Of a DNA stretch of 64,000 nt, positions 21,898 to 50,345 are shown in pieces (the first letter of the stretch is position 1; each line of letters starts with the position of its first letter). A model generated the notes under the pieces. That model made no database searches, was not told the DNA's origin, and saw nothing but the letters and a program-made list of their open reading frames with translations. Source of the DNA: Siniperca chuatsi. Lineage: Eukaryota; Chordata; Actinopteri; Centrarchiformes; Sinipercidae. The position numbers and the translations under genes were made by a program. Location: positions 10,149,233 through 10,213,232 of the forward strand of contig NC_058052.1 in the NCBI RefSeq assembly GCF_020085105.1, in the 5' to 3' direction.

Positions 21898-24800
21898 TCA
21901 AACAGTCCTGCTGCCATAACGCACGATTTCTTGAGTGTTGAGCCTGCGACTGCACTCTTCCAAGTGTGTCTTGAGCGTACTTGCGTCAGGTCGGTCTTCC
22001 GGTTTCACACACAGCATTGGCCTTATTATGATGTACTGCAACATAAAAAAAAAAAATTAAAAAAAGAGAACATCTACTGACATCTAAGCATTAAGAAATT
22101 CTACCAAACTGCAGTATTACTGCACTCAGCATTTCCTCACACGTGGATATTACTTGGGCAACCAGTAAAGGCAAATATATTAAAGGCAGATTGCTGTATT
22201 CCCCAAATACTGTCATCTGTTCTGCAGGATATTTTTTATTTAAAAAAAAAAACAAAAAAAAAAACAAAACGCAATAGTCCTGTTTTGGCTCCTCATCCTT
22301 TGAGGCTTAACAGATGACAACGGTAATAGGTATGTCAATCTCCCACCTGCCCTGTTGGTGAACATCACCAGTAAACCAGCACCCTGTAGGAAATACTCAT
22401 TGCACTTAAGTAACCAGGTTACAGTCAGCTTTCTCCAGTAAGCAGATTTCTTAAAGTCCTGTAAACGAGAAACCTGGTTTCCCCCAGGTAGATTTCTCCT
22501 GGAGAAAGCAGATTTCTCTGCCATGTATATGGGTAATCAACTTTTACAAGTACACGCGACAAAGACTTCAGACAGGGAAAGTAACAGTGGAGTGGCTGGA
22601 TGAAAGGAGAGATTATTACATGCGTCGGTCTTCTTTGTATTTAAAATTCTGAGGTCTAAATTCTAAAACTCTATCCAGTCTAACTAACACAAGGTAGCCT
22701 ATGAAAGTCCAAATAATTAGTTTTCCATCATTGCCACTAGAAGTAGTAAGTCTGTTTCCACCGTTGAATATTTGTTAAATTCAGACACATTTGCGCTGTG
22801 AAGGAAAGCACCGCTGTCCTTACTGAAGTGCTGCATGTACATGTGGATTTACAGTAACCAGGTAACTATAGTGCATGTATACATGTTCTACCTTTGTAAC
22901 CCAGTTTCTCCAAATAACATATTTACTAAAGTGCATGTGAACATAATGACTGATTCATATTGCAAGTACATTGACAAAAACCATAAAATGATGTACCTCT
23001 TCAGGAAAACTGCCTGAAAACCCTTGGGGAAATTTCTGTCCTCTGACGTCATCCCAAATCTGGAAGTCACTCAGAGATAAAAAAGGACAAAAAGAACACG
23101 TAACTGGCTCGACACACCTGATAAGTTGCTCAATTATGCTCTGTTGAACTTTTAGGATAACTGAAAAAAGATTAAACATAGCAGGTTATTAACTACTGAT
23201 AATGACACAGTAAGAACAATTTTGGATTGTGACTGAACAACTCACCACATGCATTTCATGACCAGTGGAAACTTTCCAAAGAAGTTCAAAGCATATCAAC
23301 CCCAAAGCAAATATATCAACTTTTCGGTCATAAGTCTTCTGGCTCCTCTGTTGTAAAACAAGAACACAATATTAACAAATATCACTATATATTAAATGTG
23401 CTCATGAAGTCACTGTATGTAACTAAACCAATAGTTAATAAAGCCATTCTGAGGTCTAAAGTTGTGTTCAGACCAAACCTGTAGCGAATTTTGTGTGTAG
23501 TATGAATACACACAAAGTCAATGCAAAGACGTGAATAGAAGCAAATTCACGCCGGGCGAGGTGAAAATGTTTTCAAAAAGAAACAAAACAAAAAAAATGC
23601 GAAAAATTTGTGTGACGCTGTGTCGTGAAATCCTATCAGCTCTGAGAAGGAACAAATAAGGGCTTGGAGAAAAGTGAGCAAAACCATAGGACTATATGGT
23701 AAGTTCTGAAAAACACTTAGCACTGCATTAGCTGCCAGTTAGTTAGCATGGAAGGAGTACTCCCAATGACTGTTAAGGGCAAATATTCACGGGTTGCGAA
23801 ATACTCAAAAAACAAAAACACTCCAGCAGCCGTAATATTACATTAAATAACTTTAAAAAATAGGTTCTTTTTTTCTTTGAAGTAGCTATGAAGCATAATA
23901 ACACACTCCGAGGTGTCCCATTTTTCAATGCTGTGAGCACCACAGGGTGCAACCAATATTTAATAATACAGAAAAATCTAAAGTTATTGTCAGCCGTCTC
24001 ACTTGCTCAGGAGCCATGTAATATGGGGTTCCTTTGTACAAAGTCCTCTCGATCAGGTTCCCATCATTGTCTTCAGCAGCAGCAGTAGTGACCAGACCAA
24101 AGTCTCCAATCTTCACTTCCCCATCTTGCCCAAACATGATGTTGGTAGGCTATCCACAGGAAAGAAATAAACAAACATGTAGCTTCATGAGTGATGTGAT
24201 GTAATAAATGATGATTATATTCACTTCGTCTCACCTTCAGGTCTCTGTGGATGAGCATCTTGGAGTGAATGTATTCGACTCCACTGACTATTTGCTGAGC
24301 AATAGTTAGACTCTCTTCTCTTCTCTTGGAGTTTCGCAGAGATTTCTTCACATTCTGAATATTCTTCTCGTCTATCCACACTCTAAGTGTTTTGGTGTCA
24401 CACAACTCCATCTGAATATACAGGTACTTTATTGATGAATTATCGGTAGAAGACCTAGAAAAGTAAGAAAAGACAAATGAAGAAATTATGTACCTCCAGT
24501 AAGTAAGTAAGGACTTTAATAAGATGTGACTTACTGGGAAGTGCTGCAACTGTCATCTGTACTGTCCCATTGGTCTCCTGAATCATCCATCCAACACGAG
24601 TGTAACTGAACAATGTTGCAGTGATGAAGGCCTGATAATGCTTTCACCTCTCGTAGAGCTTTGCTGATCCTAAGGATTAGAAAATAGCTCAGTTGAAACT
24701 TTCAACTTATAATGCATACAAAAAACATAGAACATCAATTAATATTTGACTTACTCTTTGCAGCGGACAATCTTTATAGCATAATCCTTCTCCGTAAGTT

Positions 24801-27800
24801 TTTCTTTCGCTTTGAAAACATGACCAAAGGCTCCTTTGCCGAGGCACACTACGCAGTCAAATTCTGATTTGTTTCTGTTGAAACAAAAGAAAATGTCTCT
24901 TATTGTATATCAGTTGTTAGAATACACAAACACAAACTAAACGCAATGGAAAATACATGCTAATATTGCAATTTAATGTTTTAATTTTCCATACCTGAAG
25001 GTTTTTGATTGGGTCGATGTCATCTCACTGGGACTTCCTGTGTTCACTCTTTCAGGAATCATCACATCCTTAAATTAACAAAATAAATCTTGATATAGAG
25101 CTTACATTGTAGAAAAAGAAAAAAAAACCTACTAAAAAAAAAAAAAAAAAAAAATCGATAAAATTATTCAAATCTCTAACAGGCTCACATTGCAACATTT
25201 TAGAGACATATCAAATCGTTTGACATGTGAAGGTAAATCAAAAGTTCATATATTAATGAAAATGACCAAAGATGCCTTTTTTGTTTCGGACAAGAACATG
25301 AAGCCTTTTTGGAGCCTTGACTCAACTTTTGACTATATACTGAGTATCAGAGGGTGGATTTCCCTTCCAGTATCATACAGATTAAGGATTAGAAAGGCAG
25401 TAACAGACCTGATCTTTGGGAGGATTCGATGAACTTGTGAAAACTGAGTCACTTGAAGTCGTTGACACACGTCTTGATTTTGCATCACTGGACTCCCTTG
25501 AAGAATACAATGAGGCATTAGTAAAAAGCTTTGACATATCAAACGCTACCATCAGTCAGTGACTTACCGTGCAGTTGGTGGTGTGGACGGTCTGTCTGGT
25601 GCACCATCAGACCAGGAGGGCACCTGAAACACACACAGAAAGTCTTTCACTTCTGCCTTTTATCATTTTTCATAGTAATTTTAAATTGAGCTGGAGTTTT
25701 CAGAATAATAACTTGGTTGGTAAGTTGTATAATAAGGAATTTCAAAAAAAGCTAAGCCGTTATGAGTGTAGATCTCTTGAGCAGCAAATTTGGTCACCCT
25801 CTTACAGCGCCAGAAATAAAAGTGCAATGAGCATGTTGACAGACAACTGTATCAATATGAAGACGTTATTTGAATATATTAAGAACAACAGGAAATATAA
25901 TAAATACCTTGCTGTCCCAGTCTGACTGTTCTTGAAGAGCAGACCAGGCAAGCTGAGCTGCATTTTGTTTGGCTTCCATAACACTCTTACCTTCACATTC
26001 AGAGTACATGAATGTTTAATGGAAAGGGCTTTCAAAATAAAAGCATGTAAGCTGTGGTGAACACGCCCCCTGTGAGCCTTTATACATCTCTGTAAGCAGT
26101 ACATTTAGAGACCGGCTAACAGCATCAGGAAGAATCTGCAGTGAAATTTCTACTTTTCTACCAAAGCACCCTTAGCTGCCAGTTTATTAGGTACACCTAG
26201 CTAAAACTAATGCAGTCTACTACAACAACCCTGCCATAAATCCTCCCTTCATGAAGGTTATAATGTTCAGTTTTAGTTGAAACTGTTTTAGAGAGGTGTT
26301 GATTCCACGTTATCATCATTTTGGAGAATGTAGTTTGTGATGCTGTTGAACTGTATGGCATTGTACAGGGAGGTGTTTCTGTAATTAGGCCTACCCTTAT
26401 GATATAAATGGGGTGGACAAAATATTAGAAACACCTGTCAGTATAACACGACGTTGAAACCAAACACTTCTCTAAAACTGTTTCAACAAAAACTGAACAT
26501 TATAACCTTTATAAAAGGTAGGATTTATTGTAGGATTGTTGTATTAAACTGCATTTTTATCTAGGCGTACCTAATAAACTGGCAACTGAGTGTTCATTTA
26601 ATGATACAAAGGGAGCAGAAAATATGAAATACCTTGCTGTCCCAGTCTGACTGTTCTTGAAGAGCAGACCAGGCAAGCTGAGCTGCATTTTGTTTGGCTT
26701 CCTTGATAGTCTTACCCTCAGCCACAGGGTAGTCCTTGTTGTTGATCACTAATTTGTAGAAAAATCTGTGTTGTGTTTTGAAAAGGAGGAATTAGTTTAG
26801 ATCATTGTGTTGACATTTTAATATTGTTTCCAACTGAACATCAATCAAGAGTTAGCACAGTGTGTCTGTAGTGTTCATACTCACTGAGGGTTATGAGGCG
26901 GGCCGCATCTCCTCTCTTCAATAAATATATGGGGGCTCTTTGTTTTCTGACAGTAGTGGTTGACAATTCCTATGTAATTTGTCTCTGTAAAGCTGCTGTC
27001 GTTCACATTGACGCTTCTTGTCTTATTACTGTAATAAACAAGTGACATTTCACACTAATGAAGACATGATAATTAAACAATGCATTGCCATTGTGATTTA
27101 CTCACCAAATATCAAAAAGACTTTGACTTAGTTCCTCCTTTTCTTGAGTTGATGTATGGTAGTAATTCTCATCTGCAGTCTTGGCAATTAAAAAAATTAC
27201 AATTTTGAGATGGTTCACACAGTGGACTGTGGCCTGCTGAGTACGTGACACCAACGAACACAACACAATATGTTTTTAGGCCTATGATTAACCCAGTAGA
27301 ACCTAATGTGTATTACTTACCTCTGTAGTTTCACTGCCACATATCTCGTTATATACAAGCTTGGCTGCTTCCTCCTTTGCTTCCCTCTTTGTTTTCCCAT
27401 AGGCAGCTGGATACTCCTTATCACCAACCACGAAGCTACAGCACCTAATAGCATAGAAACTTTAATGCATTTTCAGATGGTGACTGAACAACTACAAATT
27501 AATTTGGATGCAGTGTGGAGGCTTACAAAGAAGCATTATTTGGTTCCGATCTGGTTGACTCCACAGGCCTTATAGTCACCCCGTTCTTCTGACCATATTC
27601 ATTGAGCCAACACATGTAGTTGATGTCACTGGTACTTGTCTGATGAACCGGTGCAGTATGATTTTTTGCAGCATTTTCTGTCTAAAAGAAAAAACACAAA
27701 ATGTACACTTTTTAGCAAATACTCCCATCTGTCAGGATAAACAAATGAATCAACACTATGTATATGATCTTTCAAACTGGAGTACACAATCTAACATGCA

Positions 27801-28052
27801 CCATTTCACAAAGAAGAATCTTACCACTGGTCTCTGATTCTCCTTCTCGCTTACACTTCTCAGGGCCCTTTTAGCTGCATTCTGCTTGGCTTCCTTTTTG
27901 TTATTCCCCACACCAATGGGAAAGGCTTGACCATTGATCACAGCCCTCTTTAAGAATCTGTAGTTATAGGAAAACAGTTATAGCCGAGATGACTTGAGAC
28001 AGTAATAAATCATTATCCATTGAGAGTTAATTTTCACTTCTGTGTGTGTAAT

Positions 28053-28121
<69 letters not shown>

Positions 28122-28618
28122 TTTGGATGGGATATTCAACAAACACATGGATGTGATGTTCAGAGGGTGACAGTGGAAAAAACAGAGCCATCGTTTGTTA
28201 TTAGTAACACCTGTGCTTTTAATACTATGAAATGTCTGCTGTGAAAAAGGCCTATTGTAGTGAGTGTGTCTCATCTGCCACAACGTTCATTCAAACGTTA
28301 TACCCTAAAACAAACTAGGACGTACTCCACAAAAGGTGAGAATTATGCTTAAACGGAAGCGGTTTCAAACACTATATGACAATGAGAGACTTTAAATATG
28401 AGGATTTAAGTGGTCTGGCTAACTCCCCCCACCGCCAGTGAACTACGCGCAGCGTTAGTCGCTTCGCTATAACTTTCTATAGCGAGTAGTACGGTTTTAA
28501 CTCACCTTTTAATGCGGTCAGGTCCCTCAGAACCAACGTCCTCGTATTTTAGCGACGAGCGTGTTAGCCGCGCATACGTCTTTAGTTGAGCTACGTAGTT
28601 GCTTTTCTTCTTTCCCAT
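21898..28618 (-). CDS. eif2ak2: PKR copy A: interferon-type dsRNA-activated eIF2-alpha kinase, three dsRBDs
   Basis: Seventeen exons join in frame: 28618-28506, 27957-27825, 27681-27527, 27444-27321, 27179-27106, 27028-26885, 26765-26633, 25623-25568, 25496-25409, 25068-24995, 24874-24755, 24669 (or 24663)-24535, 24454-24235, 24149-24003, 23347-23246, 23059-22997, 22035-21898. The product has 672 (or 670) residues against 551 in human PKR. The extra length comes from a third dsRBD and a longer linker. dsRBD1 is about residues 6-75, dsRBD2 103-170 and dsRBD3 217-288, each ending in the [12 protein letters not shown] basic helix. The kinase domain shows GKGAFG (377-382), AIK lysine 399, HRDLK (519-523), DFG (539-541) and an activation loop RTLYKGT with both threonines (559, 564) matching human T446/T451, then APE. 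Family role: dsRNA sensing in the cytoplasm and eIF2-alpha phosphorylation to stop translation. No Z-DNA-binding domain, so it is not PKZ. The intact frame argues for a working gene. Confidence 0.93.
25908..25994 (-). pseudogene. Orphan 3' half of PKR exon 7 (duplication scar)
   Basis: Within intron 7 of copy A, the last ~80 bases of a dsRBD3 exon recur: the frame reads [15 protein letters not shown] then QEQSDWDSK and ends at the same AAG|GTATTT donor as exon 7 at 26633-26765. The upstream half is missing. Similarity breaks off at about 25994, next to the point (about 26009) where near-identity with copy B begins. It is most simply a remnant of an older exon 7 left at the edge of a recombination tract. 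It has no good acceptor of its own, so use as a real exon is unlikely. Confidence 0.75.
26172..26594. mobile_element. Foldback MITE in intron 7 of PKR copy A
   Basis: The left arm starts tgccagtttattaggtacac and runs for about 140 bp through the words ggttataatgttcagttttt-like and aaactgttttagagaggtgtt. The right arm, read in reverse, repeats the same order and ends ttgccagtttattaggtacg. The two arms are inverted repeats about 420 bp apart end to end, with no transposase. An almost identical copy sits in intron 7 of PKR copy B, so it was carried there by duplication rather than by separate insertion. Confidence 0.75.
28058..28118. repeat. (TA)n microsatellite
   Basis: About 60 bases of pure TA in intron 1 of PKR copy A. 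The Ile-Tyr frames through it on both strands are artefacts. Confidence 0.97.
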
Positions 28619-28899
28619 CCCGAATAATAACCAAGCGTGCACTAGCTGCTGCGGCAAACACTAGCTGTAGCTCTGCACCTGGGTCTGCAGTTCCGAGATT
28701 TAATTTTCCCCCCAGTCATCGTCGTCTTCTTTTCAATGTTTTATGGCGGTTGGTAATCAACGTTGTGGTGCATTGCCGCCACCAACTGGAAAGGAGTGAT
28801 TATCGGGACTCTATACATCCACTCTTTATGATAATAAATGCCAAGACAATGACATGAAAATAAAAAGACAAAAGCAAAGACAATAAGGTTATATTCTTT

Positions 28900-29785
28900 T
28901 TATCAAGTTCGTTCTCCTAAGATATTGAAACAACAACAGACACTTCTCTCTAGAACTTCTTTGTAAAGCTCATCTTTATTTCTTTAAGGTTCAGTGTCAG
29001 TTCTCTTCTCTCAGCATCATATTTTGGACAATAAATCATAACGTGTTCTACAGATTCTTCTTGATCACGAAATTCACACCTTCCTGTATTATGTTTTCCT
29101 ATTTGAAATAATGTACTGTTTAATCCTGTGTGACCAAAATGTAGCCTGGATATTATTGTTTCCTCTCTCCAGGTTCTCCCTGTGCGTCTCATCACACCTA
29201 CTTTTCTTTGAATGTTGTATAGCCACCTTCCTGTCCTCTCTTCTTCCCACTGCATTTGCCACCTTTCTTTCAACTTATGCTTAATTGTGCTCTTCATTTC
29301 TGTTTTACTAAATGGTACTGTAATGTCTAACCCTAACCCATCTGTATACATCTGACCACAGCTGTTTATTTATTATTTGATGATATTTTCTATATATGTC
29401 TGTACTATCTGTGAATGCAAAATAAGCTCCTTTGTTCTTTTTGCCAAGCAATGTGGGAGCTACAGTCAGGTCAGGAAGTATCCAAGGATGTGTTACTGAG
29501 AGTGGGAGTGTTGGACTATTGTTTATTTCTGTTATTTCTATTATTATTATTTTTTGCTTTCTGCTCAATTGTCCATCCAAAACGTTTTGTTTCTCTCCTC
29601 TCCTTTTCCCACAGTGCATCTTGTGTTGGAGGATCTTCATTATGTCCTCTTAAATTAATCCAGTAATTACAAAATAGCTGTATTCTCCTTAATTCCAGTG
29701 GCATTTCTCCCATTTCCACTTGTAATGCTGATGTTGGGGTTGTTCTAATGGCACCTGAACATAGTCTCAAATCCTAATTTTTGTC
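28900..29785 (-). mobile_element. I/Nimb-type LINE fragment (RNase H end)
   Basis: Minus-strand translation (with frameshifts) gives MPLELRRIQLFCNYW, then RRETKRFGW, then HPWILPDLTV, AYFAFTDSTD and, in the last frame, TGRTWREETIISRLHFGHT followed by GLNSTLFQIGKH, CEFRDQEESVEHV and CPKYDAERREL. The GHTGLNSTL and ESVEHV(M/L)xxCxKY motifs are typical of the RNase H and C-terminal part of fish I-clade LINEs. The fragment is 5'-truncated at about 29785 with an A/C-rich run beyond. It lies 0.3-1.2 kb upstream of the copy A start codon, between the gene and a block that is proximal in copy B. Confidence 0.75.
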
Positions 29786-29814
29786 AAAAAAAACAAACAA
29801 ACAAAAAAAGCATC

Positions 29815-30095
29815 TGCACACTATAGACTACTAGCTCCCAGAATTTTTAATTGTCTGTTTTTTTGCCTTCAGAAATGTGTTGTTTATCATTAGTTATCAA
29901 TAACTGCAGTTATTGTTTTGTTTTAGTTTTCAGGGAATTTAATTAATCTGTACAGTGGTGTACACACTGTCTCAGGGTGGGGGCAACGTTTTAAAAAGGG
30001 GCACCTCCGACATGTTAAAGATTAGGGTTCATTTTTGGTCTAAGGACACACCAGGCTCTAGGCCTACCTGGCTGTGGGGATGGGCACAGGTCCTT
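29815..30095. repeat. PKR upstream block, copy A version
   Basis: This block shares long runs with 40680-40935 upstream of copy B, for example tcattagttatcaataactg, ctgcagttattgttttgtt, tctcagggtgggggcaacg and tggctgtggggatg. It is non-coding and marks the ancestral 5' flank of the tandem unit. In copy B the block ends about 350 bp from the ATG. In copy A it is about 1.2 kb away because of the intervening LINE. Confidence 0.8.
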
Positions 30096-30099
30096 TAAG

Positions 30100-31390: not shown

Positions 31391-31394
31391 TAGC

Positions 31395-31879: not shown

Positions 31880-34800
31880 TCAGACAGTTACATTTTCCCG
31901 ATGCATATTTTGTGCGTTGAATGTCTGAGCCCACTTCTCCAGCTCTGCCTTCAGTGCACTTGCTTCAGGTCGGTCTTCTGGCTTCTCACACAGCATTGAC
32001 ACAATTATTTGGTTCTGCAAAAAAACGAAGAAACTGCAACTGAGATATTTGTACCAACAATAATAAATGCTGTCATACTACAATATTGCTGACGCTCCAC
32101 TCCACAGTATTTCCAACATGCACTGTGCTCAGGACACTTCTCAAAACACTGTTTTGTGTTCTGTGCTGCTTGATATTGACAATGTTCAAATACAGACAGC
32201 AGAAGTCTTGCTTTGACTCCTCATCCTTTGAGGCTTTAGAGATGGCCAACTGTGCAAACCTCTGTATGTCAGCCTCCCTCCTGCTCTGTTGCCGACCATC
32301 ATAACTGGCACCCTGTGGGAAATACTGTTTCATGTGGCAAGTAGATAAGAAAATGGTAATCTACCTCTTGAGGAAAAGTCAGTGAAAACTCTTTGGGGAA
32401 CTTCTGACGTCTGGCATTGAGCAAAACCTGGAATTCATACATTGATAAAAGGATGAAAGAACATGTTAGTTAGCCTGAAATGTACTAACAATTCAAATTA
32501 TGCTTGGTTGAACAAATAAATAAAGAAAAATGAAACTTTAATAACTTTAATAATAACACACAATGTTAACATTCTGTTTATGAAAGACTCACCTCTCCTC
32601 TTTCATGGCCAGAAGAGACTTTCCAAAGGAGTTCAAAGTATATCAACCCCAGAGGAAATATGTCCACTTTTCGGTCATACTTCTTCTCCCTCTTCTGTGA
32701 TAGAATAAAAACACAGTGCTGACAAAAGGCACCTACAGCTGCCTGATGTTATCCTTTCATTAATCATCATTAACTAGTTATGCTCATGAGGTTAATGAAG
32801 CGTCAGCTTTCAGCTCAGTTTGTACTGCTTAAATTTGTAATTAAATTTTAAATAATGTTCTGTTGGCATAAAAGTTGTAACATGTTTGATGTTAAATTTT
32901 TGATTTTACAGCTCTCACTGCCAACAGTAAAAACAGATGAGGCTGAGCTTCAGGAAATCTGGCAGCATTGTTAAGTGTGGTAGGCACATAGGTAGTCTAC
33001 CTAATTAAGCCCATTAGAAGAGCATATTTGTTAAAACAGTAATACAGAAGAATTCAAAGTTATTGTTAGTAAAGACCATCTCACTTGTTCAGGAGCCATG
33101 TAAGTTGGGGTTCCTTTACACACTGTTCTGTCCATCAAAGCAGAGTCGTCATCTCTGGTGACCAGACCAAAGTCCCCAATCTTCACTTCTCCACCCAGTC
33201 CAAACAGGATGTTGTCAGGCTAACCGTTGAAAAGCAAAAACACGAAGTGAAACAAATAAACACCTAGCGCTTCACATTATGGGCAGTAACAGATGAAGTA
33301 GTGAATTTAAGTGAAGTGTTAATTGAAATGGATTTTAAAAAGGTATCTGTGGCTGAAGCCAGCATCAAATCTAAACAGTCAGCATGTGTCTTTCATTGGG
33401 AAGGGCTGTTTTGTTCACTTTGATTAGATAAATGATCGGCTAATAGGCTTATGTTTATCTAGTTTATCTTTTCTAGATTAATATGTCAGATTATCCTCTC
33501 TCGATGACTTTTTTAATTTCTAGTTGCATTTTCTGTTCTGATTCCTCATTATAGACCCTAAAATCTGTGTGTAAAATGGGTTATTCATGTGGCATTTGTT
33601 CATTTAATTATTATTCTGTTACATTTAACGTAAATGCCTTCCATTTACCAATATTATTGTAGCGGGGAATTATTGAATACTGGCCTTAAAAAAATACTTT
33701 AACATAAGTCTAAAAACAAAACAAAATATTAGTTAAGCAAATTCTTATGGGTTTAACTTCCACTTCCTTCCTGGAAGACCTCATCTGCTGTCTCCACATT
33801 AGTACTGTGCTGTAATGGCAGCACACTAACAGAGAATTTTGGTCACAAAAGTCTTTGCTGTGATGAACTACACACTGCACTTCAAACAGCAGGAGAGCAG
33901 CAGCAGCACATTTCCACCACCTCTTGGGGCTTGTTGGGGCAGGATCTAGCCCAATACTTAGAATAACCATATGTTCATTAGTAAATGGAGGTGAGGGGCA
34001 AAATTCTAGTATGTGGTGCTGCTACCCTGTACCAGTGAGCACCAGAACATACTGGTTCTAGGTGCTCCGCCCTCTTGACGGGCTTCACTATCGGTTTGCA
34101 CAAGGACCTGTCTCAGGGTGTTGGCAAAGCCTCCTCAGGGTCAATTTCGGAACTCATCGGCTATCGTCTGACAATGATTTAGCCCCTAAAGGCAACAGCC
34201 AATGTTTTGGGGCTTCCGGCGTGGCCAGCGGATATCGGGATAACGGATATTCAGGCTAAGACTTCCTCTTCCGTGTGCCGGTCATTGTTTACAGCCCACT
34301 TACCAATGGCGGAACCCATCGGCTATCGTCTGATGAGATACATTTTAAAAAAGCAAATAAAAAGCTAATCTCTAGGGTTGCAAGACTGATAAAAAGCTAA
34401 AGTGTCGTCAGACGATAGCCGATGGGTTCCGAGATTGAATTTCGGCCAATGCGTTCCGCCTCTTTTGCTTTCCACACGGACTGTTTACCTGCATGCAACC
34501 AAAGCCTGCTCAAACGTGATTGGTCAATACTACTCGGACTGCAAACGGAAACCAGAACGCTTCCGATACCAAAGTCTTGTCCCTTGCCTACATATACTGC
34601 GTTCATATGCAGGTATCTGTTTATAGAGGTTATGTCAGGGTAAACCGGAGGACATATCAAATGCTCATTCACCTGAAGTGACATACATTTAGCTTCTATA
34701 TCAGCTTTGTCTCAGCCACTCACTGTAGAGGCTGGTCTCACCTTAAGGTCCCTGTGGATGTGCTTCTTGGAGTGAATGTATTCGACTCCACTAACTATTT

Positions 34801-37800
34801 GTTGAGCAATGCTTAGACTTTCTTCTCTTCTCTTTGCGTCTTGCAAAGACTGAGCGTTCTTATCATCAATCCACCCTCTAAGTGTTTTGGTGTCACATAA
34901 CTCCATCTGAATATAGAGGTACTTTGCCGATGAATTATCTGTAGACCTAGAAAAGTAAGAAGAGAAGAATTGTTTAATTATTCACATTCAACTTGAATAA
35001 AAAGTTAAGACTTAAGGTTAGGTGTATGGGACTTACTGGGAAGATCTGTAACTGTCAGCTGAAATGTCCCATTGGTATCCTGAATCCTCCACCCAAAATG
35101 TGTAGTATCTAACAATATTACCGTGGTGGAGGTCTGATAATGTCTTCACCTCTCGAAGAGCTTTCCTGATCCAAAGGAGAACAAGAAAATTAATCAGTAA
35201 ACAAAGTACTGCAAATGCTATACTGCACACAGGTACCTTACCACTGCATACTTACTCCTCACAGCAGACAATCTTTACAGCAAAATACTTCTCCAACAGT
35301 TTATGTCTTGCTTTGTAAACACAACCAAAGGCTCCACTGCCAAGACACTCCAAGGGATCAAAGTCTGAAGTAAACCTGTTGAGATTAACGCTATTGTTTA
35401 GGCAACAGATTAAAAAAACATTGACATGTCTTCTTGATTGTACATCAATTATTAGGAGAGAAATTAAAACCATATCAGTATAAAACACACATGCTACATT
35501 GTAAATGAATGTTTTTTTTATTCACACCTTGACTGGTTCCATGTCTCATTCTGACTATTTCCCATATTCTTGTCTTTGACAACATCCTTAGAGAATAAAA
35601 GAATGAAATAGATTTAAAATGTTGAACCCAGCTCTGATTAATTTCTATACTCTTTAATAACTAGAACATTCAACTTGTCATCCACCACATCAAAACAACC
35701 AAGTAGCATATTCTCTTTGGGAGTGACTCCCTCCATCGGTGGGGTGAGATCACGAGCAGTCACTGGTATTGCATTCACAGAATGCAAAATCCAATTAATT
35801 AAAACTGTGATAGAAAGTGCAGACCTGATCCTTCGAAGAGCTTGATGAATTAGTGAATATTCCTGAGTTACTTGTGCCCGTTGACATGCTTTGTGACGAT
35901 GCAAGACACTCCCTAGGAGAATATAATAAGAGGCATGAGTCCGGCTTTTTCATTATTAAGCTCTACAATCTGTTTTAATACTAGTGTCAGTAAGTGCCTT
36001 ACAGTGAAGTTGGTGTTGAAAACTTGGTTGGTGCATCATCTTCAGACACAGTTGACCTGAAGGACATCTACAATTCACAAAAAAGTGCTTAATTGTTACA
36101 ATGTAGCATGTTCCAAATAAAATGATACATGAAAATTAAAAATAATGTCAAATAATGTGAATTATTTAATGTAATTTTTCACCTCAGTAAAACCATTTAA
36201 AATTTTCATCATGTTAAACCACAAATATGGACCCAAACTAAAATGTCTTGCTCTTACAATGCTGCTACTAGTCTGCTGCAATCTTGCAGACTATTACAAG
36301 AACATTTGCTTTACCTACTAAAGATTTTTTACGATTATGAGAGAACAGACCTGAGCCTCGGAGGGGTTTGATGAACTGATGAATATTACTGAGTCACTTG
36401 TGCTCATTGTCGTGCTTTGTGATGATAATTCATCATGGGATTCCCTAGGGGGAATACAATGAGAGACATGAGTACAGCTTTCTCCGTATTTAACTCCATG
36501 GTATGTTCTCCTACTAATGACAGTAAGTGCCTTACAGTGTAGCTGATTGAGCTGACAACATAGGTGGTGCACCATCTTCGGACACTGTTGATCTGACAGA
36601 CACCTAAAATGCACAGAAAAGGTGTATATATAAATATATAATATATATGACATAATGTTAGACGTGTAAAAATTCACTCCAGTGGAATCATTTCATTCAA
36701 AAGTATTCAAAAGTAGCTGAGGTTAAAACTAAATGGGAACAGGAGCTGGGGATAGAGTTAAATAATGTGTGGTGGGTGGCGGCCATAGACAGAGTACATA
36801 CATCTTGAGCTTGACTCACCCTCATACAACTTAAGGTACTGCACAGGGCCCATCCTTCCAAATCAAGGATTTCAGGAATATCTCCAGATGTTGAAGATAC
36901 ATGCACTAGATGTCATAACACTCCCTGCAATCTAAATCAGGTTTTTCCTATGTCCAGAACTACATACCTACTGGGATGGTTTTTTTTTCAAACGTATGTC
37001 CTCAGTGCTCAACTTCAACTTGAAGTTCCATGTTGTAACATGTCTTACTGTGTTGTGTTACTCTTGTTTTATTTATCATTTATTTAGTTATTTTTTATTC
37101 ATTTATTTACTCATCTATTTTGCACTCTATATTTGTACTCTAAATTGTACTTACATGTTATTTTTGTTATTAATGTTACTGTCATTATTACTATTTTTGT
37201 TACTTCTATTTTATTTAGCTACAAATCTCTGTAATTTTGGAAAATCTGGAAAGTATTCTGTCACTATCGAGATACACACTTCCCTCCCCCCTGTGGAATA
37301 AAATGAATTCTCAAAAGTAGCTGGGGTTGAGATCTGTTGCCACCTGTGAGTATTGGGAAATTGGGAAAAAAGTGCAATCCCTGGAATAAATAAAAAAGAA
37401 AATGCCTTGCTTGAATGTTTAATGGAAAGGGCTTTCAAAATAAAAGCATGTAAGCTGTGGTGAACACGCCCCCTGTGAGCCTTTATACATCTCTGTAAGC
37501 AGTACATTTAGAGACCGGCTAACAGCATCAGGAAGAATCTGCAGTGAAATTTCTACTTTTCTACCAAAGCACCCTTAGCTGCCAGTTTATTAGGTACACC
37601 TAGCTAAAACTAATGCAGTCTACTACAACAACCCTGCCATAAATCCTCCCTTCATGAAGGTTATAATGTTCAGTTTTAGTTGAAACTGTTTTAGAGAGGT
37701 GTTGATTCAACGTTATCATCATTTTGGAGAATGTAGTTTGTGATGCTGTTGAACTGTATTGCATTGTACAGGGAGGTGTTTCTGTAAATAGGCCTACCCT

Positions 37801-40323
37801 TATGATATAAATGGGGTGGACAAAATATTAGAAACACCTGTCAGTATAACACGACGTTGAAACCAAACACTTCTCTAAAACTGTTTCAACAAAAACTGAA
37901 CATTATAACCTTTATAAAAGGTAGGATTTATTGTAGGATTGTTGTATGAAACTGCATTTTTATCTAAGCGTACCTAATAAACTGGCAACTGAGTGTTCAT
38001 TTAATGATACAAAGGGAGTAGATAATATGAAATACCTTGCTGTCCCAGTCTGACTGTTCTTGAAGAGCAGACCAGGCAAGCTGAGCTGCATTTTGTTTGG
38101 CTTCCTTGACAGTCTTACCCTCAGCCACAGGGTAGTCCTTGTTGTTGATCACTAATTTGTAGAAAAATCTGTGTTGTGTTTTGAAAAGGAGGAATTAGTT
38201 TAGATCATTGTGTTGACATTTTAATATTGTTTCCAACTGAACATCAATCAAGAGTTAGTGTCTGTAGTGTTCATACTCACTGAAGGTTATGAGGCGGGCC
38301 GCATCTCCTCTCTTCAATAAATATATGGGAGCTGTTTGTTTTCTGACAGTAGTGGTTGACAATTCCTATGTAATTTGTCTCTGTAAAGCTGCTGTCGTTC
38401 ACATTGACGCTTCTTGTCTTATTACTGTAATAAACAAGTGACATTTCACACTAATGAAGACATGATAATTAAACAATGCATTGCCATTGTGATTTACTCA
38501 CCAAATATCAAAAAGACTTTGACTTAGTTCCTCCTTTTCTTGAGTTGATGTATGGTAGTAATTCTCATCTGCAGTCTTGGCAATTAAAAAAATTACAATT
38601 TAGAGATTGTTCACACAGTGGACTGTGGCCTGCTGAGTACGTGACACCAACGAACACAACACAATATGTTTTTAGGCCTATGATTAACCCAGTAGAACCT
38701 AATGTGTATTACTTACCTCTGTAGTTTTACTGCCACATATCTCGTTATATACAAGCTTGGCTGCTTCCTCCTTTGCTTCCCTCTTTGTTTTCCCATAGGC
38801 AGCTGGATACTCCTTATTACCAACCACAAAGCTACAGCACCTAATAGAATAAAAACTTTTATTTAATGCATTTTCAAATCATGACAAAATAGCTAAGAAG
38901 TTGGATGCAGTTAGGAGACTTACTGAATAGCATTATTTGGTCCCGGTCTTGTTGACTCCACAGGCCTTATAGTCACCCTGTTCTTCTGACCATATTCATT
39001 GAGCCAACATATGTAGTTGATGTTGCCGATACTTGTCTGATGAACTGATGCAGCAGAAGCTTCTGCGGCATTTTCTGTCTGTTAAGATAATAGCAAATAT
39101 ACTTCAAGGAGACATATGCCATGAACTGATGTTTTACTATTAAATACCTACAATCCAACATTCTCTAGTTAAGCAAAGAGGAACAATAATCTTACTGAGT
39201 CAGCTGAGTCCTGATGTTCCTTCTCCAACAAGCATTTCAGGGCATTTTTAGCTGCATTCTGTCTGGCTTCCTTCTTGTTCTTGCCCACACCATCAGGATA
39301 GACTTTACCATTCAGGACTACCCTCTGGGTGAATCTGTAGAGGAATTGTCATACCTTTGTTGTACAGCCAAGTTGACTTGAAATGATGTTGGTGGTGTGC
39401 ATTAAAGTACATGAATCTGCACACTACCATATTCAGCCTCTAGGAGGTAAAAATCATCCATGTTGGGACTGTGTGACTCCACCAGGTTATTCACACACTA
39501 ATGTTCAACTGTACATTCATAGGCTGAAATGGTAACACAGTACATGTATTCAAACACTTTACTTGAGTACAATTTTGAGGTACTTGTACTTGATGTATTT
39601 GTACTTAAGTATTTCCATTTTATGCAACTTTATACCGCTTCTCTATCACATTTACCTGACCACAATTTACTGTTTACTTCACAAGTTTACAGAGCACAGG
39701 GCATAACTGATCCAGAGCTAGCAGGCACGTCATTCCAGCCATTAAAGGACTTTATCAACTCACTCTGTTCTTGAAAAAAAACAGTATGGGTTGGTACCTT
39801 TCTCTAAAAACTAAATTAACTTAAAAAAAAAAACCCCTTTGTGCTGTAAATATAAAGTTGTGACAAGTCCTTATGGGCAAATGTGTGAGGTAACCTCTGT
39901 TAAATCCTACACTTCCGTTTTTTGGATACATTTGTTCTGTATTAGTTGGTTGTCTCTAATCAACAAGTAGTTTCATGATATTTTAGGAGTTTTCTGATAT
40001 ACCAGGCCTCCTCCTAAAACGTATTGATGAGTAGGCCTGGCAGTTTTTCTGTGTATTACCTTGATATTGAACCACCACCCGAATCATCATCCAAGACACC
40101 CTTTGCAAGAGACTCTCATCCAAAAGCACTCCCATTTTAGTGGAGCACGACTATGCCAGAATAATACACAAAGGCGCGTGCTACAACCACCGGTAACAGA
40201 AATTCATTCAACTCACGTCTGATTATGGGCAGAGCCAACTGATCCACAGTCCTCATATTTCAGCTCGGACCGTGTTCTCTGCGCGCGCTCGTTTAGTGTA
40301 GCTACGTAGTTTCCAGTTTCCAT
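31880..40323 (-). CDS. eif2ak2: PKR copy B: dsRNA-activated eIF2-alpha kinase, three dsRBDs, long linker
   Basis: Nineteen exons join in frame: 40323-40217, 39334-39196, 39078-38924, 38840-38717, 38575-38502, 38424-38281, 38168-38036, 36603-36536, 36444-36351, 36067-36003, 35912-35825, 35586-35528, 35375-35256, 35165-35037, 34946-34742, 33219-33085, 32694-32593, 32427-32365, 32014-31880, giving 712 residues. Three dsRBDs occupy about residues 5-75, 103-170 and 217-288. The Ser/Thr-rich linker is longer than in copies A and C because an exon pair is doubled (36603-36351 and 36067-35825). The kinase domain has GSGAFG (429-434), AVK lysine 451, HRDLK (564-568), DFG (584-586), loop threonines 600 and 605 and APE. 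The exon with HRD lacks the five extra codons (KSLRN-type) of A and C. Same inferred role as copy A. An ISRE-like element lies about 145 bp upstream. All splice sites are canonical and no stop interrupts the frame. Confidence 0.93.
34140..34440. repeat. Inverted/direct 20-bp motifs in PKR copy B intron 15
   Basis: The word ggaactcatcggctatcgtc (about 34149) and ggaacccatcggctatcgtc (about 34312) are direct near-copies. Their reverse complement gacgatagccgatgggttcc appears at about 34410-34430. The surrounding 34060-34640 segment is more GC-rich than the rest of the 1.5-kb intron, which is far longer than the matching intron in copies A and C. It is most likely a non-autonomous DNA element or remains of one. 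The family is not recognised. Confidence 0.5.
36695..37310 (+). mobile_element. L1/Tx1-like LINE fragment in PKR copy B intron 7
   Basis: Plus-strand translation reads [19 protein letters not shown], then a run with [18 protein letters not shown] and [19 protein letters not shown], which matches the order KWEEDLG...IQFKVVHRxHWSKSRLxxI...CxRC of the region after the RT domain in fish L1-like elements. Stop codons interrupt it. The following low-complexity, T-rich stretch to about 37240 fits a degenerate 3' end. It is antisense to the host gene. Confidence 0.6.
37574..37998. mobile_element. Foldback MITE in intron 7 of PKR copy B
   Basis: Near-identical to the element at 26172-26594 and in the same position relative to exon 7. 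Both arms carry the gccagtttattaggtac terminus in inverted orientation. Only a few single-base differences from the copy A element are visible by eye. Confidence 0.75.
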
Positions 40324-40466: not shown

Positions 40467-40481
40467 AGTTTCGATTTCTTC
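40467..40481 (+). promoter_or_regulatory. ISRE-like element of PKR copy B
   Basis: The sequence agtttcgatttctt matches the interferon-stimulated response element pattern AGTTTCNNTTTC. It lies about 145 bp upstream of the copy B ATG (gene on minus strand). A similar element followed by the same gaacgtcac/aaacgtcac word is found upstream of copy C. This fits the interferon induction known for PKR, but function is inferred. Confidence 0.6.
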
Positions 40482-40679
40482 GTATGAACGTCACATACGG
40501 AAAAACGTCATCAAAACTATCAACTGAAACTGGGCAATTAATTAACCTACCTGTTAACGACTGCAGGTGAAATTGCAGAAATGTGTCGTTCGTTCGAACA
40601 GAGTGCGGGGTACTCACATCCAAAACACTTCTGCAGTTTGCATCAAAAAGCAAACTGAAGGCAAAAACAGACAAAAGAT

Positions 40680-40935
40680 CCGCACACTAGCTCCCGATTT
40701 TAATTGTCTTGTTTTTTTTGCCTTCAGAAATGTGTCGTTCATCATTAGTTATCAATAACTGCAGTTATTGTTTTGTTATAGTTTGCGCAGCATTTTATTA
40801 ATCCGTCCAGTGGTGTACACACAATGTCTCAGGGTGGGGGCAACGTTTTAAAAGGGGCACCTCCTACACATTAGAGATCCTGTGACCACAGGGCTGGCTG
40901 TACCTGGCTGTGGGGATGTGCACAGGTCCTCCAGT
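40680..40935. repeat. PKR upstream block, copy B version
   Basis: Paralogous to 29815-30095 upstream of copy A, sharing long identical runs in the same order. Non-coding. Together with the shared 3' flanks it defines the tandem duplication unit. Confidence 0.8.
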
Positions 40936-41390
40936 TCTTAAGTGTTTGCTTCTGATCTCTGACTCTGAAGGCTGCAACTTCACTGGTTTTCCTGCAGTCT
41001 AAGAGCTTAAGCTTGGAGCTAAAGTACTTACTTGTCCAGCTTGATTTAGAAAGAAAATCGTCATATTTCAACATGTCTCAAATGCTGAATCTTCATATCT
41101 GAAAACAGTTGTCTTGCACGTACAGTTTTGGGAATCAATGACAGAAACAAGTACAAGCATTTGGTACACGAAGGTGATTTTCTGGAACTAGGGCACATTC
41201 CCCATCTCAGAGCTGCTGAAATTCCCATCCAGACTCATTTGAATGTAAAAACAAGACAGATCATCAGGAGAGCGGCCACTAAAATTCACAAGTTGTACAA
41301 AATACAAAAGTACTTATACAAACTTTACAGAAGAAGAATGACCATTACACCCTAGCTGCCGATGTTATATTTTCCAATTCATCCTATTCA
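40936..41390. other. Spacer between PKR copies C and B
   Basis: An open plus-strand frame at 41128-41355 shows no recognisable domain, and its first methionine has no support as a gene start. I treat the spacer as non-coding. Confidence 0.45.
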
Positions 41391-41397
41391 TTGAAAA

Positions 41398-41515
41398 GCA
41401 AAGGGTGTAATGTGACATCACGTTAAACACATTTGACCATTTACAGCATAGAATACATTACTTCAATACCAGTTGACAAAGGAATTACACAGGACATGAT
41501 TATTTGTTAAAAGTG
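41398..41515 (-). repeat. Shared 3' flank of PKR copy C
   Basis: Counterpart of 31395-31530. Words such as gcaaagggtgtaatgtgaca, tttacagcatagaatacatt and acatgattatttgtta occur in the same order. Probably 3' untranslated or immediate 3' flanking sequence of the tandem unit. Confidence 0.65.
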
Positions 41516-41640
41516 AATAATGTTGCATTCCCTGATTTTAAAATGCACATGGTCATGTGCCTTTTCCCACGATGCTGAATAAATAGTCATGCATGTGATG
41601 ACAGATGCTTTCGCATTGTTTGAGTATTTCCTTGTAATAA

Positions 41641-44600
41641 TCAGACAGTCTTATTGTCGCGACGCATATCTTTAAGCGTTGTAAGTGTACGACTGCACTC
41701 CTCCAAGTCTGTCTTTAGTTTACTTGCTTCAGGTCTGTCTTCTGGCTTCACACACAGCATTGACTTTATAATTCGGTTCTGCAATAAAAAACAACAAAAA
41801 GAACAGATATTGGAATCTCCTTAATATCCATAAATGATGCCAGTGTCTTTGAGGCTCCACTCAACTGTATTTGCCTCAAGCTGACATTACTTGGGCAACC
41901 TAACAAAGTAAACCGTTTCCCCAAACAGTCATCTGTCCTGCTCGATATTTGACATTTTTATTACATTACATTACATTACATTACACACACACACACACAC
42001 ACACACAGTCCTGTTTTGGCTCCTCATCCTTTGAGGTTGAACTGCTATAACAGTGCAAACCTCTATACCTCAGCCTCACTACTGCCCTGCTAACCATCAC
42101 AAATGACTGCCTGCCTGCAGAAAATACTGTTTCGTGAGACAAGTAAAAGAAAGAATGCTGGTGCACCTCCAAGGAAAAATTGTGTGAAAATCCTTGAGGA
42201 AGTTTCTGGTTTCTGGCATCATCCCAAATCTGGAAGTCATGCAGTGATAAAAGGGAAAGCAAAAAGCATCTATTAGTAAACAGTTAATATGGACATATTC
42301 TGTACAGCATGATTTTGGACTCTGGACAACTCACCGCTTTCCTTTCGTGGCCAGTAGAGAGGTTCCAAAGGAGTTCGAAATATATCAACCCCAAAGCAAA
42401 TATGTCCACTTTTCGGTCATAAATGCTCCTGCTCTTCTGTCAAACAGGAACACAAAATAACACAAGACACTTTAGCTCTACAGCACCAGTAGTGGTTCAA
42501 ATCTCCGCAGGGTGCCTTTATGTCTCCCTTTGGCAACCGATATTTAATAATACAGAAATCTAAAGTTATTGTCAGTATAGACCGTCTCACTTGCTCAGGA
42601 GCCATGTAAGATGGGGTTCCTTTGTACACGGTTCTCTCGATCACGTTCTCAGCATCGTCATCATTCTCAGCAGTGACCAGACCAAAGTCTCCAATCTTCA
42701 CTTCCCCATCTTGCCCAAACATGATGTTGGCAGGCTAACCACAGGAAAGAAATAAACAAACATGTAGCTTCATGAGTGATGTGATGTAATAAATGATGAT
42801 TATATTCACTTCGTCTCACCTTCAGGTCTCTGTGGATGAGCATCTTGGAGTGAATGTATTCGACTCCACTGACTATTTGCTGAGCAATAGTTAGACTCTC
42901 TTCTCTTCTCTTGGAGTTTCGCAGAGATTTCTTCACATTCTGAATATTCTTCTCGTCTATCCACACTCTAAGTGTTTTGGTGTCACACAACTCCATCTGA
43001 ATATACAGGTACTTTATTGATGAATTATCGGTAGAAGACCTAGAAAAGTAGGAACAGAGAAACAGTGAAATGACATACCTTCATGTTAAGTAAAAAAGTA
43101 CAGTAAGGATTTGAACAAGTGGACGTGGCTTACTGTGAAGTGCTGCAACTGTCAGCTGCACTGTCCCATTTGTATCCTGAATCCTCCAACCAACATGTGT
43201 AGTATCGAAGAATATTGCCGTGATGGAGGTCTGATAATGCCATCACCTCTCGTAGAGCTTTTCTGATCCAAAGGCAAACAAGAACATGGCTCAGCTAATG
43301 AAACTTTCAATTTATTTGCACAGCGTCTGTTTATTCAAAAAAATATTATACAGTGCTCATTTAAAAAAGGAAACAAAATGAAACATCGTTCATATTTGAC
43401 TTACTCTTTGCAGCGGACAATCTTTATGGCATAATACTTCTCCAGCAGTTTTTGTTTTGCCTTGAACACATGACCAAAGGCTCCTTTGCCGAGACACACT
43501 ATGGAGTCAAATTCTGATGTAAACCTGTTGAGATTAACACGTATTATTAAGGCAAAAAGGTGACTATATATATATAAGAATTTTTATTAATATAAAAATG
43601 TCTTTCTGATAGAATGTTAATACATGAAACACAAACTAGGCCAGACAAACAAGGCCAAAGCAGTGCTAAAATGCTAATATTGTACTTCAGTGTTTTCATA
43701 TTCCATACCTTGAGAGTACTGACTTGGTTGTTTTTTCACTCTGACTATTTCCTGTATTCTTGTCATTGAAATTGGCCATTATATCCTTAATGAATAAAAT
43801 AAAGTCATGATATAGAGATTAAAATGTTAAACAAAATCCAACAAGATAAACTAGCATGATTAATATCTTCTTACTTTACCTCTTTGCTGTTATTGCAGGC
43901 CTTTGCGAAATTTGCTGCAATTCTAACAAGACAAGAAAAATTATAAATCAGGTGAAATATTATATAATGTTGCTTTACAGTGGGTCTCAAAAGATGGCTT
44001 ACCTTACTTTGGGCTTCACATCAGGGCTTCTAATCTTTGTAGCGGGAAGTAGGAAAATATAGCCAATCATATTAAAGCATACATACATTCAAAATCCATT
44101 ATATGAGGGAAACAGTCCTCCTGTACTTCTCAGTAATATAAAGAGCTCAGAGTGCAATGCCAAAAAATGTGATTTGATTAGAAGTGTGCTGAGAACTAGA
44201 CTAACTTCACTGGACTTACTAACACTCTTGGTCTTGTAATACTATTGCTTACTTGTTTGCTCGCATCAAATACATGTGTAACTCCCAGGGATTACTAAAA
44301 GGCATTCTGGTAATGTGTTCTAGTAATGTAATCAAGGTCAGTAAATTAATATAACTTCTGCAATAGACTGAGCATTACAAACTGGTGAACCACGACAGCA
44401 TTTGAGGATTGCATAGGAAATAACCGACCTGATATTTGGGAGGATTTGATGAATTGGTGAAAACAATGGAGTCATTTGAAGTCGTTGGCACGCTTTCCGG
44501 TTTTGTCTTGTGGCACTCCCTTGGAGAATACAATGAGACACATTAGTAGAATATTCTCAACATTAAACTTTACCATCTGTTGTACTCCTGTCAGTGCCTT

Positions 44601-47092
44601 ACGGTGCGCTTGGTGGTGTGGACAGCCTGGCTGGCGAAGCATCATCAGACACAGCTGACCAGAAAGACAACTGAAAGCACATAGGAAGTGTTCGGCTGTT
44701 ACATAGTACCATGTTTTGTAGTAATTGATGCTCTTTGGCATGGGGTGCTTCATTAGTGTAATAATGTTATATGATGTTAAACCACAGATGTTCAAAAGAA
44801 CCTCGCCTTGTAATCTGCTGCTAGATGTATCAGCTTTTCAATGAGAGTTACAACTGCTGTGCATGTTGAAAAATCACGAGCCAGAAAGAGTGTTTTGTTA
44901 CAATAACAACTGGTAACAGTGAGCTGTCATGTCACCAATTTTAGTTCTGGCATTTATTGCTTATTTCTTCTATATGTTGTAACTGATGGTTAAGTAAAAG
45001 GCTCAGGAAACATATGCAATGCCCCTGTTAACAATCTACTAGGTGGCACATAAATAAAAATCATAATTTATCATATCAAAACAACAAGAAATATGAAATA
45101 CCTTGCTGTCCCAGTCTGACTGTTCTTGAAGAGCAGACCAGGCAAGCTGAGCTGCATTTTGTTTGGCTTCCTTGACAGTCTTACCCTCAGCCACAGGGTA
45201 GTCCTTGTTGTTGATCACTAATTTGTAGAAAAATCTGTGTTGTGTTTTGGAGGAAAGGACAGGCAAGGAAAAGAGGAAATAGTTTAGATCATTTTGTTAA
45301 CATTTTAATATTGTTTACAAGTCAATCAATCAAGAGATTTCATACAGTGTCTGTAGCGTCTATTCAGGTTAAACAGATTCAGTCAGACTCACTGGGTGTT
45401 ATGTGGTGGACCGCATCTTTTCTCTAAGATGTAATCATGGGAGCGCTTTGTTTTCTGACAGTAGTGGTTCACGATTCCTATGAAATTTATCTCTGCAAAA
45501 CCTTCGTCGGTAGCTCTCACACTCAAGCTCTTTGTCTTATCACTGTAACACCAAAACAAATCAGACACTAATTAAAACCTTTTCATAACCAAACAGAATC
45601 AAAAGAATCAAATGGAAACAATGCGTTGCCACTGTTTGTGCTCACCAGATTTCCGACACATTTTGATTCAATTTCCCCTTTGGTTGGCTTGATGCAACGC
45701 TGTATTTCTCCTCTCCAGTCTTGAAAAAAATTAAAATAAACATAAGGATGATTTTTATTATGATTCACTGATCAGAGTGCAGCTTGTGTAACATTTGAAA
45801 TAAAACTACTTGAACATTCATGACAATGATACAGTCAGTGACAAGCATGTCAAGTCTTTCCTTCCCGCTGCTCTTTTCTAGGACTTTAATTAAGCCAGAA
45901 GAAACGAGTGTGTATTACTTACCTCTGTAGTTTTACTGACACATATCTCGTTATATACAAGCTTGGCTGCTTCCTCCTTTGCTTCCCTCTTTGTTTTCCC
46001 ATAGGCAGCTGGATACTCCTTATCACCAACCACGAAGCTACAGCACCTAACATTACACAAACTTTATTTGATGCATTTTTAAACGGTGACTAAACAACTA
46101 AATAAGAATTTGGATGTAGTGTGGAGACTTACTGAAGAGCATTATTTGGTCCCAGTCTTGTTGACTCCACAGGCCTTATAGTCACCCTGTTCTTCTGACC
46201 ATATTCATTGAGCCAACATATGTAGTTGATGTTGCAGATACTTGTCTGATGAACTGGTGCAGTAGAAGCTTCTGCTGCATTTTCTGTCTGTCACGATGAT
46301 AACAAATATATGTCAAGGACATGTGTGCTGTGAACTGGTCTTCTACACTTTAAAATACAAAAATTCACACATGCACTAAAGCGGTATAATCATCTTACAG
46401 GCTCAACTGATTCCTCCATCAAGCCTGTCAGGGCATTTTTAGCTGCATTCTGTCTGGCTTCCTTCTTGTTCTTCCCCACACCATCAGGATACACCTTACC
46501 ATTCAGGACTGCTCTTAGTATGAATCTGAGAAGAAATTATGAAACACTGTTAAACAGGCAAGATGATGCTTGAATGCGGTGTGATGGAGGTCAGGGCTTA
46601 CAGTGCTTCAGACACAGTTCAGTCAAGCACTACAGCCTTTTCTGAAGTAGTGTTACAAGCATAACATGCCATATTCCTTAACATTTTCCTATTGCTTTAT
46701 CCCCCACAGGGATTTTAAATTTGTACAGAAAACAATAAATAATATATCAACTCAATGTTAAAGGTATACAATGTCAAGTGCATGTGTGGTTTAAATGTGG
46801 TAACACTGAATAGCCTAAAGCAACATACAGAATACACCTATTTTCTAATTTTTCTGCCAAAAAAAAGGGAAAATACATCCATTCAATAAGGATCTGTCTT
46901 ATTAAAGTCCCAGATCTCTTCAAATCCTACATCCCTGCATGACTTTGCAGGTCGCAAATCCCACCAGAGGTTTGATTCAACTCACGTTTTAATGTGGTCA
47001 GGGCCAGCAGATCCAACGTCCTCATATTTCAGCTCCGAGCGTGTTCTCTGTGCAAACTCGTTCAGTTTAGCTACGTAGTTTACCGTTTCCAT
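41641..47092 (-). CDS. eif2ak2: PKR copy C: dsRNA-activated eIF2-alpha kinase, three dsRBDs
   Basis: Seventeen exons join in frame: 47092-46986, 46525-46399, 46287-46133, 46046-45923, 45719-45646, 45542-45393, 45234-45102, 44670-44603, 44519-44429, 43785-43709, 43524-43405, 43262-43134, 43039-42820, 42734-42591, 42436-42335, 42229-42167, 41778-41641, giving 673 residues. dsRBD1 is about residues 5-73, dsRBD2 99-166 and dsRBD3 215-286, each closing with a basic Lys-rich helix. The kinase domain has GKGAFG (381-386), AIK lysine 403, HRDLK (521-525), DFG (541-543), [16 protein letters not shown] with loop threonines 560 and 565, and a KPEDRP motif in the C-lobe as in human PKR. The most compact and perhaps most regular copy, and the closest to gpatch11. 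An ISRE-like site lies about 100 bp upstream. Exon 13 and its flanking intron are identical to copy A. Confidence 0.94.
41961..42008. repeat. (ATTAC)n - (CA)n compound microsatellite
   Basis: About five units of ATTAC pass directly into about twelve CA units, in the last intron of PKR copy C. A repeated Val-Cys frame on the minus strand is an artefact. Confidence 0.95.

Positions 47093-48306: not shown

Positions 48307-50345
<2,039 letters not shown>

Follow-up and report, generated by a model that had tools for sequence, protein, structure and literature searches.

Three tandem PKR (EIF2AK2) genes in Siniperca chuatsi form a mosaic probably shaped by interlocus gene conversion

PKR (EIF2AK2) is a standard case of the arms race between hosts and viruses, and both the number of its copies and the number of its double-stranded RNA-binding domains (dsRBDs) vary among fish. 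Three tandem head-to-tail PKR genes (PKR1-PKR2-PKR3) have been described in Tetraodon nigroviridis (Rothenburg et al. 2008, PMC2291453). Three tandem PKR genes are also reported for Xenopus tropicalis, and three dsRBDs for Tetraodon PKR1 and zebrafish PKR (PMC2291453). Here we describe three neighbouring genes, PKR-A, PKR-B and PKR-C, lying head-to-tail on the minus strand of a 64,000-nucleotide stretch of the Siniperca chuatsi genome (contig NC_058052.1, positions 10,149,233 to 10,213,232; hereafter the window) and lettered by falling coordinate. We consider it highly probable that they are tandem PKR (EIF2AK2) paralogues that have been partly homogenised by interlocus gene conversion.

The likeness to the Tetraodon array goes beyond the tandem head-to-tail order of three genes. 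Tetraodon PKR1 (TnPKR1) exhibits three dsRBDs of two exons each and seven kinase exons, and its weakest dsRBD is the second, as in A, B and C (PMC2291453). In contrast, the dsRBD is single in TnPKR2 and only partial in TnPKR3, whereas A, B and C have three each, and conversion between the TnPKR copies is not described in the available parts of that paper (PMC2291453). Zebrafish PKR resembles the present genes in its three dsRBDs, in kinase exons of 120, 102 and 63 bp and in the one exon between dsRBD2 and dsRBD3, but its tandem neighbour is PKZ with Z-alpha domains (PMC2291453), none of which were found in the A, B and C proteins. Its linker has five exons (PMC2291453), against three in A, three in C and five in B between dsRBD3 and the kinase domain. 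Fugu, a percomorph fish, also has tandem PKR duplicates (PMC2291453, PMC7582293), but these are two genes with two putative dsRBDs each in the 2008 description (PMC2291453). A parallel of another kind is provided by mammalian IFIT1/IFIT1B, tandem antiviral paralogues in which recurrent conversion homogenised one part while the other diverged, confounding the trees; that is another gene family with one recurrent breakpoint, whereas the PKR array exhibits several tracts in several modules (PMC4887208). In the literature searched (mostly titles and abstract openings, with few subscription journals) we found neither three tandem PKRs with three dsRBDs each nor a report of conversion between PKR copies. 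An earlier note on this DNA had suggested that the exact arrangement may not be described. Since tandem PKR triplets and three-dsRBD fish PKRs are both published (PMC2291453), that suggestion has to be narrowed to their combination: three copies with three dsRBDs each may be new.

The gene models were assembled by hand and then checked by script. PKR-A (41641..47092, minus strand) has 17 coding exons for 673 aa, PKR-B (31880..40323, minus) 19 coding exons for 712 aa, and PKR-C (21898..28618, minus) 17 coding exons for 670 aa. The span 21898-47092 runs exactly from the stop codon of C through the ATG of A, with coding-end gaps of 1,317 bp from A to B and 3,261 bp from B to C. The earlier note had claimed full open frames with canonical splice sites, three dsRBDs per copy and complete kinase motifs, and each of these claims holds. 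A GT donor and an AG acceptor are present at all 50 introns, internal stops are absent, the coding sequence lengths are multiples of 3, and all three start codons exhibit a purine at -3 and a G at +4. Under simulated neutral substitution (0.1, 0.2 and 0.3 per site), the open frame survived in none of 300 copies at each rate, which excludes chance for the open frames. Pairwise protein identities are 469/656 (A-B), 485/665 (A-C) and 456/653 (B-C). Searches with PKR proteins of six-frame open reading frames (ORFs) of at least 18 aa, at an E-value of 0.01, detected no PKR fragment in the window beyond A, B and C. The two additional exons of PKR-B arise from a linker exon pair that occurs twice (36603-36351 and 36067-35825, minus) and lengthens the linker from dsRBD3 to the kinase domain. 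PKR-B also exhibits an enlarged kinase intron (33250-34735, minus) of 1,522 bp that contains short inverted repeats, while the same intron is 85 bp long in A and C.

Aligned with each other, the three copies exhibit patches of near-identity set in sequence that diverges by 15-23%. The longest patch is common to B (37412..38847, minus) and C (26009..27451, minus): 1,436 aligned bp contain 16 mismatches (1.1%) and 7 gap columns, against a divergence of 21.3% outside. It holds the second half of dsRBD2, the whole of dsRBD3, several introns, and the next intron with an inverted-repeat element. A second tract joins A (42675..43050, minus) to C (24090..24465, minus) over 376 bp with 2 mismatches (0.5%; 15.1% outside), and takes in kinase exons 3 and 4 with the 85-bp intron between them, which exhibits 1 difference. 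Two further tracts involve all three copies. That of exon 7, dsRBD3b (45090..45249 in A, minus), matches B over 160 bp without mismatch and C over 161 bp with 1 mismatch, and that of exon 4, dsRBD2b (45909..46050 in A, minus; 142 bp), has 3 mismatches to B and 2 to C. In exon 3, A and B share a tract of 169 bp with 6 mismatches. Shorter candidate tracts occur in exon 2 between A and B (83 bp, P = 9e-4) and in exon 3 over 73 bp (A-C, P = 3e-5; B-C, P = 0.14, not significant). The mosaic does not figure in the earlier note.

Synonymous sites exhibit the same pattern. Outside the tracts, dS ranges from 0.21 to 1.11, with one value saturated for the A-B pair in kinase exon 6. It falls to 0-0.04 in every pair for exons 4 and 7, which encode the C-terminal halves of dsRBD2 and dsRBD3, and likewise in exon 3 for A-B, in exons 5-6 for B-C and in kinase exon 3 for A-C. 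Exon 3 is intermediate in comparisons with C (0.16-0.18), and kinase exon 4 gives 0.08 for A-C because the tract spans only part of this exon. None of the 30 four-fold sites of exons 4 and 7 is variable, whereas the remaining exons vary at 48 of their 124 such sites (Fisher, 4e-6). When the 516 variable coding sites were shuffled, the longest runs of identical variable sites, 41 for B/C and 27 for A/C, were each matched in 0 of 2000 shuffles; the longest stretch invariant across A, B and C is 84 bp, while the 2000 shuffles reach at most 44. Binomial probabilities, taking as reference the divergence outside the tract within the same aligned segment, are 1e-121 for B/C, 4e-24 for A/C and 4e-18 for exon 7 of A/B.

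The end of the B-like tract in C retains what appears to be a trace of its origin. An orphan truncated dsRBD3b exon (25908..26009, minus) lies there, outside the gene model, in the intron after exon 7. Compared with exon 7 of A and B, its first 32 bp contain 12 mismatches, whereas its last 70 bp match throughout. The border in C is abrupt, with 12 bp of B sequence, then the truncated dsRBD3 exon, then an A-like intron; in B, the sequence runs on past the point where C switches to the orphan exon. The simplest reading would be that C received a segment of B and kept the end of its own exon, an exon already partly altered by earlier conversion. It is from this leftover half-exon that we infer the B-to-C direction, with B 37412..38847 as the presumed donor, and the order of events. 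The transferred segment would include an inverted-repeat element resembling a miniature inverted-repeat transposable element, located in intron 7 (B 37566-38001, C 26163-26598; about 436 bp, 98.9% identical), of which there is no copy in A and none further within the window.

These patches bear the hallmark of conversion, near-identity that extends to synonymous and intronic sites and ends at sharp borders; it is clear for B/C and A/C, and weaker for A/B. The mosaic, as read from the alignments, thus appears best explained by interlocus gene conversion, while dsRBD1, the linker and the kinase ends are still distinct among A, B and C. Some points weigh against this explanation. The longest identical run of A/B is only 8 (P = 0.034 in the shuffle test), so that the case for exchange between A and B depends on exons 3, 4 and 7, in which few sites or none vary. 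The binomial test assumes independent sites, and the tracts were picked for their length. The tracts limited to exons could be due in part to constraint. Carried to its end, the last point becomes an explanation without any conversion, in which very strong purifying selection, acting also on synonymous sites through splicing signals or RNA structure, keeps the exons near-identical. The exon 4 and exon 7 tracts would fit it, overrunning the exon edges by only 4-15 bp and encoding nearly invariant proteins. It does not account for the 85-bp intron with its single difference inside the A/C tract, for a B/C tract spanning several introns and the inverted-repeat element, or for the orphan half-exon of C, which switches from 12/32 to 0/70 mismatches in mid-exon outside any gene model. 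We consider this explanation very improbable.

Near-identical blocks in tandem copies are also where assemblies fail. Mis-joined or cross-corrected reads, or an uncollapsed haplotype counted as one of the copies, might therefore simulate a mosaic. However, the divergence of 15-23% outside the tracts is far above haplotype level and rules out a haplotype duplication; the B/C tract itself carries its 16 mismatches and 7 gap columns; and the spacers and insertions differ from gene to gene. We accordingly give little credence to an artefact of assembly or polishing.

Conversion also limits what can be drawn from the genes as wholes. Whole-gene pairwise dN/dS is 0.41 for A-B, 0.49 for A-C and 0.46 for B-C, and exceeds 1 in none of the three pairs. 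Together with the open frames, this supports in a general way the earlier claim that the copies are kept by selection, as selection on the protein. The selection for dosage or for diversification against viral antagonists that the earlier note suggested would be conjecture; gene conversion makes whole-gene dN/dS and whole-gene trees unreliable. A single protein tree of A, B and C would likewise mislead, because their exons differ in history.

Domains were called with the Pfam dsrm profile (PF00035), each dsRBD being scored singly against the curated cut-off of 23 bits. Every protein exhibits three dsrm stretches and one Pkinase domain, and all nine dsRBDs exceed the cut-off. In PKR-A, dsRBD1 (exons 1-2, 46399..47092) scores 69.2 bits, dsRBD2 (exons 3-4, 45923..46287) 35.1 bits and dsRBD3 (exons 6-7, 45102..45542) 55.3 bits. 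The corresponding domains of PKR-B score 64.0 bits (exons 1-2, 39196..40323), 36.1 bits (exons 3-4, 38717..39078) and 50.6 bits (exons 6-7, 38036..38424), and those of PKR-C 52.9 bits (exons 1-2, 27825..28618), 35.8 bits (exons 3-4, 27321..27681) and, for the B-like dsRBD3, 59.0 bits (exons 6-7, 26633..27028). The weakest domain is dsRBD2 in all three. The kinase domains, of seven exons each, are found at 41641..43524 in A (Pkinase 8.1e-44), 31880..35375 in B (3.8e-45) and 21898..24874 in C (5.5e-46), all these domains being on the minus strand. The Gly-loop, A-x-K, HRDLKPxN, DFG, both activation-loop threonines and APE were identified in all three kinases; B exhibits DIFPLG where A and C have DIFALG. 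The GPxH motif, which we take to be that of the RNA-contact loop (loop 2) of the dsRBD, is intact in dsRBD3 of every copy. In dsRBD1 it is intact only in A (GPDH; GSAH in B, GPDR in C), and in dsRBD2 in none (GPNN in A and B, EPNN in C). Possible sites of functional difference between the copies are thus the GPxH motif of dsRBD1, kept by A only, the DIFPLG of B and its doubled linker exon pair.

The N-terminus of PKR-A matches the dsRBDs of human PKR (PDB 1qu6, 1.6e-19). Its kinase domain, the only one of the three searched against PDB, has the eIF2alpha kinases PERK, PKR and GCN2 as best matches among the best 60 of 1124. Within these, PERK (1.2e-56 and 1.4e-56) slightly outscores PKR (1.5e-53), which counts against the identification as PKR and raises the question of another eIF2alpha kinase, PERK-like or PKZ. 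Three dsRBDs per protein, and the absence of a Z-alpha domain from the Pfam matches of all three, set A, B and C apart from both, and on domains we reject either identity as scarcely conceivable. The exon pattern points the same way. In fish PKR, two exons encode each dsRBD, dsRBD2 is separated from dsRBD3 by a single exon, and kinase exons 1, 5 and 6 measure 120, 102 and 63 bp in zebrafish PKR and PKZ (PMC2291453). All three genes follow the fish PKR pattern as given in the available parts of that source, with two exons per dsRBD, one exon separating dsRBD2 from dsRBD3, seven kinase exons, and 120, 102 and 63 bp for kinase exons 1, 5 and 6.

The genomic neighbourhood was assigned at domain level. 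One or more ORFs with a G-patch domain (49471-50070, minus; 2.3e-08) lie directly upstream of PKR-A, followed by a HEATR5-family gene (about 51400-64000, plus) that runs past the window end and contains a Laa1/Sip1/HEATR5 domain at 61913-62224 (6.5e-26). These neighbours are probably GPATCH11 and HEATR5B, which also flank human EIF2AK2, so that at domain level the position agrees with the EIF2AK2 locus. The A-B spacer (40930-40700) and the B-C spacer (30094-29847) share 81% identity, as expected from tandem duplication of a gene with its spacer. Elsewhere in the flanks, a reverse transcriptase (RVT_1) match (4.7e-09) was observed in 1 of 116 ORFs scanned from 1-21500 or 48600-64000, and ARAGORN predicts a tRNA-Phe at 15102-15177 (minus) with the unusual anticodon AAA, perhaps a pseudogene.

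The upstream regions of the three genes differ. An interferon-stimulated response element (ISRE) is located 100 bp upstream of the start codon of A (GAAANNGAAACC, 47193..47204, minus) and another 143 bp upstream of that of B (GAAANNGAAACT, 40467..40478, minus). The strict ISRE pattern occurs 3 times in the 64 kb, the third at 62.8 kb, against 0.43 expected from 30 Markov simulations; the looser pattern GAAANNGAAA has 10 occurrences in the window against 4.1 expected. From the start of C to the promoter match of B we found no ISRE, strict or looser, a difference that the earlier note does not mention. The DNA upstream of B and C is similar as far as 40686/29830 and then differs, C exhibiting about 1.2 kb of other sequence (28600..29830, minus) in place of the ISRE-bearing region of B. 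Within it, a weak similarity to A (47162-47114 / 28882-28837, 78%, E-value = 0.014) suggests that part of the old 5' region of C may survive. The look of one ORF had suggested a retroelement remnant, an idea dropped when Pfam gave no match to that ORF. With proximal ISREs in A and B and none in C, interferon probably induces A and B, whereas C is probably not induced by it, or is regulated differently.

The same observations could mean that PKR-C looks intact but is silent or decaying. Besides the missing ISRE and the unrelated upstream DNA, C carries the orphan exon inside its intron after exon 7, and exhibits no AATAAA/ATTAAA within 1.5 kb past its stop, unlike A and B, which both have such hexamers; in 1.5 kb of AT-rich DNA, this last absence is weak evidence against C. 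The frame and the motifs of C are nevertheless intact, its 16 introns all have good splice sites, and its dN/dS values are those given above for A-C and B-C. We regard a silent C as a possibility to be kept in mind, though a doubtful one.

The array probably originated by head-to-tail duplication of a gene with its spacer, followed by partial homogenisation through gene conversion among A, B and C. Conversion would have placed the 1.4-kb B-type segment in C (second half of dsRBD2, dsRBD3 and the next intron with its inverted-repeat element), given A and C a common kinase middle, and left all three with near-identical C-terminal halves of dsRBD2 and dsRBD3. By analogy with known PKRs, each protein would bind viral double-stranded RNA through its three dsRBDs, dimerise, autophosphorylate at the two activation-loop threonines and phosphorylate eIF2alpha, upon which translation would stop. 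Zebrafish PKR phosphorylates eIF2alpha in yeast (PMC2291453), and it is by such analogy that we predict these activities, from activation by double-stranded RNA to eIF2alpha phosphorylation, for A, B and C.

Selection might further maintain a modular form of conversion, in which the kinase core and the RNA-contacting halves of dsRBD2 and dsRBD3 are recopied again and again and so kept alike, whereas divergence is left to dsRBD1, the linker and the outer kinase parts. The latter we take to be the dimer-facing and the substrate- or antagonist-facing regions. The three proteins would then share one sensor and one engine behind three virus-facing surfaces, two of them interferon-induced and that of C separately controlled. 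This extension is speculative, and we think it improbable.

Should the conversion be real, trees and selection tests based on entire genes can give misleading results for duplicated fish PKRs, and an analysis by recombination block would be needed. For the locus itself, the prediction is that A and B would respond to interferon through their proximal ISREs, and that C would not.

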